Shown in pieces: positions 38,027 to 44,876 of a stretch of 64,000 bases of DNA (within the stretch, counting starts at the first letter, position 1; each line of letters opens with the position of its first letter). A program made the translations under genes and the position numbers. This DNA is from Desulfovibrio psychrotolerans (lineage in GTDB: Bacteria; Desulfobacterota; Desulfovibrionia; Desulfovibrionales; Desulfovibrionaceae): NCBI RefSeq assembly GCF_013340305.1, contig NZ_BLVP01000001.1, forward strand, positions 124,001 through 188,000. Direction: 5' to 3'. The notes beneath the pieces are model-generated. The model worked only from the letters and a program-made list of their open reading frames with translations. It did not search any database and was not told the DNA's origin.

Positions 38027-38614
38027 ATGGATATGATGAAAAAATGGCTGGATAAACTCTGGCTTCTGGCGGAATCGAAGGGGGCGCGGCGCACTCTGGC
38101 CACGGTTTCCTTTACGGAATCCATCTTTTTTCCGCTGCCGCCAGACCTGCTGCTTATTCCCATGGCGCTGGCAAACAGGAAGCAGGCGTTCCGGCTGGCG
38201 GCCATCTGCCTGTTCTCTTCGCTTCTGGGCGGCATTCTTGGGTACTATGTCGGTTATTTTTTCATGGATTTGCTCGGAATGCCCATCATACGTTTCTACG
38301 GTTTTGACGATAAGTATCTTGTCATCAAAGAATGGTACGACACCTATGACGCATGGGCTGTTGCCGCAGCGGGGCTTACGCCCATTCCGTACAAGCTGTG
38401 CACGCTGACGGCGGGGGCGTTCCGCATTGACCTGCTGGTGTTCATCGTGGCTTCCACGCTCAGCAGGGGAGTGCGGTTCTTCACCATAGCCGGGCTGATT
38501 TACCTGTTCGGCGACAGGGCAAGGTATTTTCTTGAGAAACGATTTGACCTTATTCTGCTGGGCACGCTTATCCTCGGCATTGCAGGGTTTGTTGCCATAG
38601 CGTTTCTTGAATAG
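38027..38614 (+). CDS. YqaA-type DedA/SNARE-associated membrane protein
   Basis: A 195-residue protein with about four or five membrane segments. The family motif region reads 'FTESIFFPLPPDLLLIPMAL' (29-48), then 'LLGGILGYYVGYFFMDLLG' and 'AAGLTPIPYKLCTLTAGAF', matching the YqaA branch of the DedA superfamily. DedA proteins are linked to lipid flipping and membrane homeostasis; no substrate can be deduced. It is 6 bases after pcm, so co-transcription is very likely. Confidence 0.85.
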   Translation: MDMMKKWLDKLWLLAESKGARRTLATVSFTESIFFPLPPDLLLIPMALANRKQAFRLAAICLFSSLLGGILGYYVGYFFMDLLGMPIIRFYGFDDKYLVIKEWYDTYDAWAVAAAGLTPIPYKLCTLTAGAFRIDLLVFIVASTLSRGVRFFTIAGLIYLFGDRARYFLEKRFDLILLGTLILGIAGFVAIAFLE

Positions 38615-40352: not shown

Positions 40353-40907
40353 ATGTTTAATCTCGCAAACAAGATCACGCTTGCCCGGATACTTATTGTT
40401 CCCTTTGTTGTCATCCTGCTCTATTTTCCCGGCAAGATGACCAATCTTATTGCTTTTTTCCTCTTTTTTATTGCATCCGCCACCGATATGCTGGATGGGT
40501 TTGTCGCCCGCAGGGAAGGGATTGTAACCAGTTTCGGCAAGTTTCTGGACCCGCTGGCGGACAAGCTGCTTATCTGTTCCGTTCTGGTCATGCTCAGCTA
40601 TCTTGGCTGGGTTCCCGCGTGGATAACCATAGTCATCATCTGCCGCGAGCTTATCGTGACCGGTCTGCGCGCCATGGCAGCCGATGAAGGTATTGTCATA
40701 GCGGCAGACAGGTACGGAAAACTCAAAACCATAATGCAGATGCTGGCATGTGGTCCGCTCATCATTCATGAGCCGCTCTTCGGCATACCTGTGGCATGGT
40801 TGGGAGAGATTCTTCTTTACATAGCGCTTGTTCTCACTGTATTTTCTGGTGGAAACTACCTGTACGGTTTTTATCGCAACTGGCTGCAGGAGACGGCAAG
40901 CAGTTAG
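40353..40907 (+). CDS. pgsA: CDP-diacylglycerol--glycerol-3-phosphate 3-phosphatidyltransferase
   Basis: A 184-residue CDP-alcohol phosphatidyltransferase for phosphatidylglycerol synthesis. The family motif D-G-x2-A-R-x8-G-x3-D-x3-D is seen as 'DMLDGFVARREGIVTSFG' followed by 'KFLDPLADKLL' (about 45-73). It has four or five membrane helices. It follows the SLT gene immediately and precedes a small gene and ftsB. Confidence 0.93.
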   Translation: MFNLANKITLARILIVPFVVILLYFPGKMTNLIAFFLFFIASATDMLDGFVARREGIVTSFGKFLDPLADKLLICSVLVMLSYLGWVPAWITIVIICRELIVTGLRAMAADEGIVIAADRYGKLKTIMQMLACGPLIIHEPLFGIPVAWLGEILLYIALVLTVFSGGNYLYGFYRNWLQETASS

Positions 40908-41000
40908 CGTTTTCGTTGCAGACGCAACGCCCGCACGCCGGAAGCGGTGCCCCGAACTGATCGGGATGACTTCCGAAACGGTATTTCTCAGGGGGTGGCC

Positions 41001-41273
41001 ATGCAGCAGCATGAAGCATTGCAGAGCAGGCTGCGCAACTGTCTGCAAACCATTTTGGAACTTGAACCAGACCTTGAAGGTTTGGAAATCGGCCATGATC
41101 TCATGAAGGAGTTCGATCTGCTCAAATCCTTTATGGAAAAGCTGGATGACGTGGAATTGCAGGAAGAGGATGTGCGCAGGATTGAAACTGCCACAGCCAA
41201 TTTTCTTGAAGAACTTAAAGGACCGCTTTCTGATATGCGGGAACGCAGCACCGCATCGCGGCGCCTGAATTGA
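41001..41273 (+). CDS. Small helical hypothetical protein
   Basis: A 90-residue acidic, fully helical protein without signal or membrane segment; 'LEPDLEGLEIGHDLMKEFDL' and 'LDDVELQEEDVRRIETATA' suggest an amphipathic bundle. I do not recognise the family. The ATG at 41001 has an AGGGGG site upstream and is chosen over 40947. It lies between pgsA and ftsB; its stop is 2 bases from the ftsB start, so it belongs to this operon. Confidence 0.7.
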   Translation: MQQHEALQSRLRNCLQTILELEPDLEGLEIGHDLMKEFDLLKSFMEKLDDVELQEEDVRRIETATANFLEELKGPLSDMRERSTASRRLN

Positions 41274-41275
41274 CC

Positions 41276-41602
41276 ATGTTTTGGAAGCGCGTACTGCTGG
41301 GGTTTCTGGTTATCCTGATCCTCTTTCTGCTGGGCAGGATGCTGATAAGCGATCAGGGGCTTTTTTCCTATCGTGAACTGAAGGCTGAGCATGAAGCCCT
41401 GGAGCAGCAACTTTCAGAATTGAGGGAAAAAAATCTGGCCTTGAGTCAGGAAATTCGCTTGTTGCAATCCAACCCTGAGTATATAGAGAAAGTAATTCGC
41501 CAGCGGATGAATTTCGTTAAGGATAACGAAATTTTGTATATCTTTCCGGATACAATTAAAGAGGGTAGAGCAGGAGCCGCTCCGGATGAAGGCAAAGATT
41601 AA
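41276..41602 (+). CDS. ftsB: Septum formation initiator family protein (FtsB/DivIC-like)
   Basis: A 108-residue bitopic protein: a membrane helix at about 7-23, then a coiled coil ('LKAEHEALEQQLSELREKNL', about 37-56) and the conserved end 'NPEYIEKVIRQRMNFVKDNE', which defines the DivIC/FtsB family. It would link FtsL and FtsQ in the divisome. TTG at 41270 overlapping the previous stop is an alternative start. The end overlaps the TPR gene by 17 bases. Confidence 0.88.
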   Translation: MFWKRVLLGFLVILILFLLGRMLISDQGLFSYRELKAEHEALEQQLSELREKNLALSQEIRLLQSNPEYIEKVIRQRMNFVKDNEILYIFPDTIKEGRAGAAPDEGKD

Positions 41603-42497
41603 ATGGTATCAGGAAGTTTTGGAACTGGAACCGAGTTCCAAGGTGTTCTTTCCGCTTGCCAAGCTGTTCGCCGAAAATGACCAGTACCCGGAAGCCATAG
41701 CAACGCTGAAGCAAGGGCTGGAACGGAATACCGAACATTTTGAAGCCCGGATGCTGCTCATAGACTGCCTTGGCAGAATGGCGGCAATGGATGCCCGACA
41801 CCGGCCCGCCATGGAAGCGGAGATACGCTCCATAGGTGATGTGCTGCAACGATATCCCGCCTTCTGGCAAAGCTGGGCCGGAACCCTTTCCGCACAGCCG
41901 CAGTCGAAAGATGCTGCGGTAGCCCTCTCTTTCCTTTCCGCCGCGTTCGCGGATGCCTCCATATCCTGGACCGAAATCATCGAGCAAGGCCTGCGCCAGG
42001 TACTCATGGGAGAGCAGGGGGCCGCAGCGGCATCCGCTTCACCTTCCATGGCACCGCTTAAGGTGGTTGCTCCTCCGCCCGTCCCATCGCACGAAGAAGA
42101 CGATGAATCCGATGGGGGTATTGTTTCTGCAACAGGCCCCATTCCGCTGGTGAGGGGACATGTTCAGCGAGGTTCCGGCGAGTTTTCCGGTGCGGACGTT
42201 GAGGACGAGGCAGAGGACGAGCCGTTTTCGCTGCGGACTCTTTCCATGGCCAAGGTGCTGGCGGAGCAGGGTGACACCAGAGGTGCTCTGGAAATCTGCG
42301 ACGAGTTGCTCGCCAGTGCACAGGAACCGGCAGAAAGGCAACGGGTGGAAGCTTTCCGCCACACAGTAGCCGCAAGCGGCAGAACCGCCGTGCCGGAACA
42401 TGTAACAGCGGAAAACCAGCCTCTTCAGGGAAAAACCAAACTTATCAACACCCTTGAATCCCTTGCGGAGCGCTTAGAGGCCCGTGCGGCGCGATAA
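41586..42497 (+). CDS. TPR-type repeat protein
   Basis: A 303-residue protein with TPR-like helical pairs at the N terminus ('VLELEPSSKVFFPLAKLFAE', 'YPEAIATLKQGLERNTEHFE'; 11-60) and near the C terminus ('SMAKVLAEQGDTRGALEICD', about 222-241). A Pro/Ala/acidic linker (about 145-205) joins them. No signal peptide, so cytoplasmic. It resembles FimV/TPR scaffold proteins found near envelope genes, but no specific function can be given. Overlaps ftsB and is followed by a SPOR lipoprotein. Confidence 0.75.
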   Translation: MKAKIKWYQEVLELEPSSKVFFPLAKLFAENDQYPEAIATLKQGLERNTEHFEARMLLIDCLGRMAAMDARHRPAMEAEIRSIGDVLQRYPAFWQSWAGTLSAQPQSKDAAVALSFLSAAFADASISWTEIIEQGLRQVLMGEQGAAAASASPSMAPLKVVAPPPVPSHEEDDESDGGIVSATGPIPLVRGHVQRGSGEFSGADVEDEAEDEPFSLRTLSMAKVLAEQGDTRGALEICDELLASAQEPAERQRVEAFRHTVAASGRTAVPEHVTAENQPLQGKTKLINTLESLAERLEARAAR

Positions 42498-42586
42498 CCC
42501 CCTTCCTTTCTGTGCCATCACCAGCCACAGCGCCGCCCCCGATCGGCAATCTTTGGTATAAACACAATCCTTTCAGGAGAGTATAC

Positions 42587-43849
42587 GTGCGTCGTCTGAT
42601 TTTTCTTATTGTCCTCATGGCTTTTTCGCTTTCTCTGGCCTCCGGCTGCAAGCAGGCCGCGAAGAATGTGTGGAAAGATACCCGCAGATACTACCGTGAA
42701 TACATAAATACCCCCGCCACACTGAAATTTCAGGAAGCGGATGCCTCTGCCGTGGAGGATAAGCTGGCAACCGTGTACACGCCTGTGGGCATGGCTCTGG
42801 AATCGTTCCGGCGCGACATGCTGGCGCAGGATGTCTTTCCCACCGAAGCGTGGGTGAATGACATGTTTGACCGCTATCCGTGGCTCAGCGGTATTGCCGT
42901 TGTCTCTCCGGAAGGGGATATGTATATGCAGCGCCCCTCCGTCTCCATGAAGAGCCTGGATTTTATGCCGCTGTTTGAGGAAGATGAGAAGATAAGCTAC
43001 CGGGACATGCGCGCCTATGCGCAGGACAATCCCCTTGGTCCCGAAGTCTACGTGGGTACCCCCTTCTTTGTGGATAACGAGATGAAGGGTATGGTTGTGG
43101 CCCATTTTGACCCGCGCAATCTGCTGCACCTGTGCCCGTCACCGGCGCGCCTTGTGATCCTGAGCCCCACCTTTACACTCTGGCCCGGCCATTATGTGAT
43201 GGAGGAGACACCTCTGGAGACTGTGGAGTGGGAAAAAGTTCTGCGCAGACGCTCCTCTGACACAGAGAGCAACAAGTACGGTGAGTTTTTGTGGATAGCC
43301 AAGTATATCGGCAATCTGCCCCTGGTGTTCGCCGCATCGACGGATGAGTATCCCATTGACCCCAGACAGTTGGAGGCGTTGGCCGCACCGGCCCCTGTGC
43401 GTGACGTGCCCACGGTTCCCGTTCCCGAGCCTGCCGCACAGGAAACCGAAGAGGAATCCAGCGAGTTTGAAATAATGGCAGCCCCCGCGCCGCAGCAGCC
43501 TGCTGCGGCTGATGCAGCCAAAGCCATAAGGCCTGCCATGAGTGACACCCCGGAACCCGCTCCGCTGACCAAGGACATTGTGTGGTCGGTGCAGATTGGT
43601 GCCTTCCATAATCCGCAATATGCGCAGGACCGCATGAACCTGCTGCGCACGTTTGGCTATTCGCCATGCCTGATGAAGCTCTACGACCGGCACGGACAGT
43701 TATGGCATGTTGTGCAGATTGCTGACACCCCCGACAAGGAAGAGGCGTTTAAGCACGTCAAAGAATTCCTCGGCAAGGGAACAGGACTGGACTACAATGT
43801 GGGTGCGCTGGATGCCGGTGTTGTGAGCCGCCGTAAAGAGTGCTTCTAA
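42587..43849 (+). CDS. Lipoprotein with Cache-like domain and C-terminal SPOR domain
   Basis: A 420-residue protein starting at GTG 42587, with CAGGAGA upstream. The lipobox 'LSLASGC' gives lipidated C21. Residues about 55-215 contain '[20 protein letters not shown]' and '[20 protein letters not shown]', resembling the PDC/Cache sensor fold. A Pro/Ala/Glu linker (about 265-330) leads to a SPOR domain ('[20 protein letters not shown]'), which in this family binds denuded septal peptidoglycan. I know no standard name for this combination. Context (pgsA, ftsB, TPR) points to the cell envelope and division. An upstream in-frame ATG at 42512 would destroy the lipoprotein signal. Confidence 0.8.
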
Positions 43850-43865: not shown

Positions 43866-44876
43866 ATGCGTCAGGTTACCGTAACGGAACATGTTCTGCT
43901 TCATCAGACCAAGTCTCCTTCCGCGTCAGGCAAGTTCACGGCCTTGCTTTACGACCTTATTCTTGCCGCAAAGATCATTCAGCGCGAGGTGAACAAGGCC
44001 GGTCTGCTGGATATTCTCGGAGCAACCGGCGAGACCAACGTGCAGGGAGAGCAGGTTCAGAAGCTGGACGACTTTGCCAACCGTACGCTCATCCATCGTT
44101 TGCAGAGAACAGGGGTGCTGTGCGCCATGGCGTCTGAAGAGAATGCCGACCTTATTCTCGTTCCGGAGAAATTCCGCCGGGGAGATTACATTCTCATCTT
44201 CGACCCTCTGGACGGCTCCACGAATATTGACGTTAACATCAACGTGGGCACCATCTTTTCCATCCTTAAACGGAAATCCTCCTCGGAGGAGGACGTGACC
44301 ATGGCGGACGTTTTGCAGCGTGGTGCCGAACAGGTTGCGGCCGGGTATTTTCTGTACGGCTCCTCGACCATGCTCGTCTATACATCGGGCGAGGGCGTGC
44401 ACGGATTCACGCTGGACCCCAGCGTGGGCGAATTTCTGCTGTCGCACCCGGATATCCGTATCCCGGAGCGGGGAAAGGTTTACTCCGTCAACGAGGCCTA
44501 TTACCACTATTGGGATACCCGCACCCGCAAGGTGGTGGACTACTTCAAAAGCCCGGAAAACGAACGGGGCGCCCCCTATTCCCTGCGGTACGTAGGGTCG
44601 CTGGTGGCGGATTTTCACCGCAACCTGCTGAACGGGGGCATCTTCATGTATCCGATGGATCAGCGGAGCCCCTCCAGACCGCAGGGCAAGCTGCGGCTGA
44701 TGTGTGAAGCCTCTCCGCTGGCCTTTCTTGTGGAGCAGGCAGGCGGAAAGGCCATAGACGGCAGCAGGCGGATTCTGGATATACTCCCCGAGCACCTGCA
44801 TGAGCGGGTTCCCCTGTTTATCGGTTCTCCGAGAGATGTGGACACGGTTACCAGAATCTACTCGCAGACCGACTAG
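43866..44876 (+). CDS. fbp: Fructose-1,6-bisphosphatase class I
   Basis: A 336-residue Mg-dependent FBPase, the committed step of gluconeogenesis. '[20 protein letters not shown]' and the metal motif '[17 protein letters not shown]' (about 115-131) are clear, followed by '[20 protein letters not shown]' and '[20 protein letters not shown]'. AGGAGG lies directly ahead. It is 16 bases after the SPOR lipoprotein gene and may share its transcript. Completes the gluconeogenic set with pyc, ppsA and gpmI. Confidence 0.95.

Follow-up and report, generated by a model that had tools for sequence, protein, structure and literature searches.

Cache domains are known mainly as the external parts of transmembrane receptors. 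Among the dCache receptors, TlpA of Helicobacter pylori (6e09; Z 12.5, 3.6 A, 190 residues), sporulation kinase D of Bacillus subtilis (4jgp; Z 11.9, 3.2 A, 168 residues) and the extracytoplasmic sensor PctA of Pseudomonas aeruginosa have the fold predicted for residues 51-256 of the protein described here. FtsN, DamX, DedD and RlpA share with this protein a SPOR fold, its conserved Gln and its C-terminal position. A transglycosylase domain and an FtsN-type transmembrane anchor are features of known SPOR proteins, and RlpA is a lipoprotein too. A third comparison is offered by WalK (YycG), a transmembrane histidine kinase with a Cache domain that PMC9210968 ties to cell-wall homeostasis.

The window, that is, the whole stretch of 64,000 nt of Desulfovibrio psychrotolerans DNA that was analysed, encodes a lipoprotein that combines these elements differently (Table 1). 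In contrast to the dCache receptors, it is anchored by lipid and lacks flanking transmembrane helices and any kinase, chemoreceptor or cyclase output. Unlike FtsN, DamX, DedD and RlpA, it has neither a transglycosylase domain nor an FtsN-type anchor, and its partner domain is dCache. The extracellular part of WalK aligned to one module only (5is1, residues 60-183; Z 10.7, 2.7 A, 114 residues), and WalK has no SPOR domain and no lipid anchor. The protein belongs to a family of Cache lipoproteins that stand alone, with no output domain, and carries a lineage-specific SPOR fusion, a new arrangement of known domains. The dCache lipoprotein itself, which is old and widespread in the order, is more unusual than the pairing of Cache with SPOR, and a search limited to the open-access literature found no description of it. 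Our main reading, to which we give a probability of about 0.55, is an exported, Cys21-lipidated dCache protein that acts in trans and whose SPOR tail, in one lineage, holds septal glycan. A separate SPOR lipoprotein of the same genome (L001) was read as RlpA.

Table 1. Features at the lipoprotein locus (window positions, unless a locus is named)
Feature	Position	Strand	Evidence
pgsA, conserved neighbour	40353..40907	+	TIGR00560 E 2.3e-52; 74/78 loci
Small hypothetical gene between pgsA and ftsB	40947..41273	+	found in 67/78 loci
ftsB/DivIC family, conserved neighbour	41270..41602	+	PF04977 E 8.2e-20; synteny
TPR protein, conserved neighbour	41586..42497	+	Pfam; synteny
Ribosome-binding site AGGAG, 7 nt 5' of the GTG start	42575..42579	+	sequence read directly
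Lipoprotein gene, 420 aa	42587..43849	+	translation; homologues
Lipoprotein signal peptide (predicted), residues 1-20	42587..42646	+	model helix 2-19; ASG precedes Cys
Cys21, predicted lipidation site; Lys at +2	42647..42649	+	translation; family alignment
Double-Cache (dCache) domain (predicted), residues 51-256	42737..43354	+	AlphaFold model; Foldseek and VIA matches
Pro/Ala/Glu-rich linker, residues 257-330, mostly low model confidence	43355..43576	+	model
SPOR domain (fold residues 331-409) and C-terminal residues to 420	43577..43846	+	Pfam; alignments; model; folds
fbp, class 1 fructose-bisphosphatase	43866..44876	+	NF006778 E 6e-152; 75/78 loci
SPOR/TPR protein of ~620-720 aa, copy in G517	L191:4911-6779
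SPOR/TPR protein of ~620-720 aa, copy	L105:4920-6797
SPOR/TPR protein of ~620-720 aa, copy in the window's genome	L190:494-2656

Lipoprotein signal and predicted dCache domain

Read from the window sequence, the gene runs from a GTG start at 42587 to a stop codon that ends at 43849. The N-terminus of the product, [21 protein letters not shown]21, contains the lipobox ASG before C21. This Cys was present in all 79 rows of the family alignment, and of the 84 family ORFs, 75 had a match to a PROSITE-like lipobox expression close to where it was expected. Because the Cys is kept in every aligned row, the predicted lipid anchor characterises the family and is no accident of one sequence, which agrees with the assignment as a lipoprotein in the earlier note. 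The signal helix (residues 2-19) was the sole hydrophobic N-terminal helix in the model, and no cytoplasmic output domain was found in the protein by Pfam or in the AlphaFold model. By the lipoprotein sorting rule, the Lys at +2 suggests residence in the outer membrane; the predicted location is most likely the inner leaflet of that membrane.

The middle region was nearly silent in sequence searches. In the window protein, Pfam matched the SPOR domain alone, with dCache_1 (PF02743) unmatched at E 1, and NCBIfam gave no match to the middle region. A search of solved structures with the full protein sequence gave no meaningful match. Within the family, dCache_1 was weakly reached by three of the 79 members (best E 0.022), no member matched any NCBIfam model at E 0.01 (0/79), and the family profile gave only weak matches to solved sensor or chemotaxis proteins (best E 0.046).

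The earlier note had proposed a Cache-like sensor here and named structure prediction as the check, with a fold other than PDC/Cache counting against it; the AlphaFold2 model, built from the 79-row family alignment, gave a dCache fold at residues 51-256, with block pLDDT values of 90-98 across residues 51-260. In the model, a long N-terminal helix is followed by two successive PAS-like modules, which form a compact double Cache. Foldseek returned 77 solved chains at E <= 0.001, the best 50 of which were sensor or receptor structures, including one biosensor built from such a domain. The 50 matches listed by VIA-align were likewise sensor or receptor structures or a biosensor derived from one, with 5ere from Desulfohalobium retbaense at the top (Z 13.7, 3.3 A, 190 residues, within the span 51-256). 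Several core positions were strongly conserved, namely W99 and W215 (79/79), G110, P117 and F174 (76/79) and D175 (75/79). Compared by eye with the conserved amino-acid-binding motif of the dCache_1AA distal module, as given in PMC10104139, D175 could match the terminal Asp, and the R-x-W-Y stretch was not seen.

Distribution and gene neighbourhood

The core protein was found by homologue search in 108 of the 119 genomes of the window's family; the 11 genomes without a match comprised 10 that were less than 90% complete and one that was 99% complete. Across the order Desulfovibrionales, the family profile matched 145 of 150 genomes and all 36 genera sampled. Twenty of these matches, which belonged to two other families (f97 and f98), were weak (E 1.9e-16 to 3.5e-4) and mostly covered the N-terminal half, and the five of them that were read fully (L183-L187) resembled lipoprotein ORFs and had the same genes around them. 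At the level of the phylum, 14 of 297 genomes matched, 11 of them from the window's family and three from outside the order, the latter weakly (E 4.8e-5 to 4.9e-4). Plasmids searched by tblastn gave no match, and a single-protein scan of genome contigs found nothing. Alignment A1 omitted L006 (identical to the window locus), L014, L042 and L110 (genus, length and ends as in L041), L101 (whose ORF runs off the contig) and L084 (which lacks a start within range); in alignment A4, some first codons were read as Met.

The neighbourhood was compared at the loci of 78 genomes, taken from the 108 family genomes and spread over genera, with flanks of up to 5 kb. The order ftsB-TPR-lipoprotein-fbp on one strand was kept at 73 of them. 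The five exceptions were three loci cut by contig ends (L049, L101 and L104), one without fbp within 5 kb (L073) and a weak member with none of ftsB, TPR and fbp (L103). Adjacency to pgsA, ftsB and a TPR gene had already been remarked on in the earlier note, which did not mention fbp, and this arrangement proved to be conserved well beyond the window. Moreover, ftsB and the TPR gene lay upstream and fbp downstream in all 18 loci chosen from five other families of the order, several of which had an extra 0.7-1.6 kb between the TPR and lipoprotein genes. The small product encoded between pgsA and ftsB gave no Pfam or NCBIfam match at E 1, and no signal peptide was seen by eye in the TPR protein. 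In the window, the cluster also contained tsaD, trxA, trxB and bamD on the downstream side and pcm and an Mrp-like gene on the upstream side; the product of 38027-38614, which had no match in NCBIfam at E 1e-5, was taken for a DedA-like membrane protein. Most of the conserved neighbours (pgsA, fbp, tsaD, trxA, trxB and bamD) are mixed housekeeping genes, so the proximity of ftsB is a weaker functional clue, and in such a mixed cluster even a long-standing linkage is not sufficient proof of a division function.

A sensor fold that stands alone on a lipid anchor could also be that of a periplasmic ligand-binding protein that passes its ligand to a distinct receptor or transporter in the membrane, in the manner of substrate-binding lipoproteins, and has no role in division; the best solved match, 5ere, is indeed described as an extracellular ligand binding receptor. 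However, the neighbours named by family search included no receptor, kinase, chemoreceptor or transporter, and a housekeeping cluster would seem an unusual place for a nutrient receptor. We therefore consider this explanation quite unlikely.

SPOR domain and its putative glycan site

The C-terminal SPOR domain named in the earlier note was recovered both by the Pfam profile PF05036 (residues 333-390, E 1.2e-6, 29.2 bits against a cut-off of 21) and by the predicted fold. From an alignment that included 31 relatives, the tail, taken as residues 311-420, was modelled with a mean pLDDT of 87.3 and, in the model and its fold matches, had the RNP-like beta-alpha-beta-beta-alpha-beta fold of SPOR domains. 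The tail sequence alone gave no meaningful match among solved structures, and a profile of the tail and its SPOR relatives matched FtsN (1uta, E 1.5e-9), RlpA (9.5e-6), DedD (0.0013) and DamX (0.0026). With the tail model, Foldseek gave no PDB match at E <= 0.001; its first row was CwlC, and DedD and RlpA were within the first six. In VIA, the first rank was taken by 6ozd, an exported protein of Burkholderia (Z 10.7), and ranks 2 to 6 by the SPOR structures of RlpA (two entries), CwlC, DedD and DamX, with Z scores of 8.6 for RlpA, 8.5 for CwlC, 7.3 for DedD and 6.5 for DamX; FtsN was a weak structural match, with a Z score of 4.3. The RlpA match was 6i09, a SPOR domain with bound denuded glycan (3.0 A over 76 residues). 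Designed repeat proteins, which were also matched in the tail searches, were rejected as composition artefacts.

Five residues, Q336, A339, C361, W373 and C419, were invariant across the four SPOR-bearing relatives. According to PMC6895207, the glycan-contacting Gln is Q270 in RlpA and Q251 in FtsN, and FtsN Q251 and W283 are reported to be necessary for septal localisation. In the profile alignment, Q336 aligned with FtsN Q251 and RlpA Q270, and W373 aligned with FtsN W283. The residue aligned with R285 of FtsN, a basic residue in the glycan site of that protein, was V375, so the glycan affinity of the tail may be weaker or differently built. The C252/C312 disulfide of FtsN, which appears in the same paper (PMC6895207), was considered as a parallel for C361/C419 and rejected, as these cysteines lie elsewhere in the domain.

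Among the four SPOR-bearing proteins, dN was 0.17-0.35 for the SPOR domain, 0.10-0.31 for the dCache domain and 0.36-0.57 for the linker, whose residues 262-325 changed faster than the dCache domain and, mostly, than the SPOR domain. Because the SPOR values resemble those of the dCache domain and the linker values are higher, the tail looks constrained; dN/dS was not used because dS was saturated in many pairs. By analogy with the septal SPOR proteins, the tail should tether the SPOR-bearing version to septal peptidoglycan.

Outside the core family, the nearest relatives of the tail were N-terminal SPOR domains in frames of 623-648 aa from genus g8, which matched the tail profile at E 5.2e-22 to 1.1e-11. 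The best of these (genome G517) belonged to a Pel-like exopolysaccharide operon that also encodes PelG (E 1.5e-142) and a glycosyltransferase resembling PelF. Proteins of ~620-720 aa of this kind had an N-terminal SPOR-like domain, TPRs and a C-terminus that by eye resembled an outer-membrane barrel; Pfam did not report SPOR at E 0.01 in the copy of the window's genome (L190).

Because its closest relatives in these searches belong to an outer-membrane protein of a Pel operon, the tail might be a recent fusion without a septal function, serving, for example, exopolysaccharide or general glycan binding. A nearest relative need not share a role, however, and in its fold and its key Gln the tail agrees with SPOR domains that have denuded glycan as their ligand, whereas all 12 aligned g8 relatives have Arg at the position of Q336, a difference in binding site between the two groups. 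A tail without septal function thus appears very improbable.

Probable gain of the SPOR domain

The SPOR-bearing form was present in four of the ten genomes of the window's genus (G000, G079, G119 and G120), which represent one Halodesulfovibrio lineage and include the window's genome. In the other six genomes, the products were 257-261 residues long or, in two of the six, an open frame of 263 was read. In the Pfam scan of 79 family members, SPOR was found in two and was without a match in 77. The combined Cache and SPOR architecture of the earlier note therefore stands in that both domains are real, but falls as a defining design.

In a core tree of 25 chosen rows, the genus was grouped with a support of 99/97, and the four SPOR-bearing proteins were grouped together (90/99, below the star of the tool) as sister to the other six. 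The tail profile matched 43 of 199 genomes of the order, a sample that did not include G120. The full tail was matched in the lipoprotein gene in three of the 43, all from the window's genus (E 3.6e-64 or better). The other 40 matches had E values of 5.2e-22 or weaker and lay elsewhere in the genome wherever positions were comparable; 12 of these 40 genomes were outside the core search. Additionally, the SPOR tail was absent from the listed ORFs read at all 18 loci taken from elsewhere in the order, outside the window's family, and a profile comparison of the core family with the SPOR set gave no match. A broken SPOR remnant downstream of the gene in SPOR-less members was considered and rejected at the one locus read, L037, where the stretch before fbp was AT-rich, contained a hairpin resembling a terminator and, when inspected by eye, showed nothing that could be read as SPOR.

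The SPOR tail was thus probably a later addition, gained once at the base of the four genomes; loss in the other six is less likely because the outgroups lack SPOR. Since the core is kept without SPOR across the order, its conserved role cannot depend on SPOR, and the family as a whole is not characterised by a septal role, given the six of ten genus genomes and 77 of 79 members that lack the domain. The four genomes with and six without SPOR in one genus offer a natural contrast on what septal tethering contributes.

Proposed mode of action

In the main reading, the lipoprotein would be exported and would receive at Cys21 a lipid that anchors it in one of the envelope membranes, from which a short helical stretch would carry the dCache domain into the periplasm. 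With no transmembrane segment and no output domain, the dCache domain must act in trans; we infer that it binds a ligand or an envelope protein in this way and would influence its partner by contact. Because the core is encoded near ftsB and a TPR gene, its role across the order is probably in envelope or division housekeeping. One Halodesulfovibrio lineage would then have gained a flexible linker of ~70 residues and the SPOR domain. As in FtsN, DamX and RlpA, by analogy, the added tail may bind denuded glycan and concentrate the protein at the septum, and we infer a septal localisation for the SPOR-bearing form. The lipid anchor, the sensor fold without output and the wall-binding tail together probably make this form a contact regulator of envelope proteins near the septum.

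The Cache domain of WalK is reported to be bound by peptidoglycan fragments (PMC9210968) and in that respect sets a precedent for linking such a domain to the wall. A bolder and rather doubtful proposal is that the order-wide Cache lipoprotein reads the state of peptidoglycan, perhaps through wall fragments as in WalK, and relays it by contact to the division complex containing FtsB, with the SPOR lineage being parked on denuded septal glycan. If true, the SPOR-bearing lineage would have a two-input wall sensor without a transmembrane segment. A lipid-anchored Cache fold near ftsB that lacks an NCBIfam model marks an unstudied envelope family of sulfate reducers, for which the phenotype of a deletion would be directly informative.

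C-terminal diversity of the family

Without SPOR, the products were 249-512 aa long from the predicted start, and their C-terminal tails differed strongly between genera, with some relatives being almost tailless. This variation, together with the absence of transmembrane and output domains, could be explained by a structural tether or spacer between the outer membrane and peptidoglycan, in which the dCache domain is a degenerate, non-sensing scaffold and the variable tails, SPOR in this protein and long Pro/Ala-rich stretches in other members, are interchangeable wall contacts. We regard this as unlikely: dCache positions such as W99 and W215 are strongly conserved, and the existence of nearly tailless relatives argues against tethering by the tail as the common function.

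An aromatic C-terminal end (WFF, WLF, LFF, etc.), often after acidic residues, was seen in 15 of 84 family ORFs, including L066, L072, L075, L080 and L085. Meanwhile, the Pro/Ala-rich tails of genus g40 and some relatives had a conserved RPSPFGP-like motif in or near the end (L027, L044, L046, L047, L048, L020 and L055), which is perhaps a docking motif.
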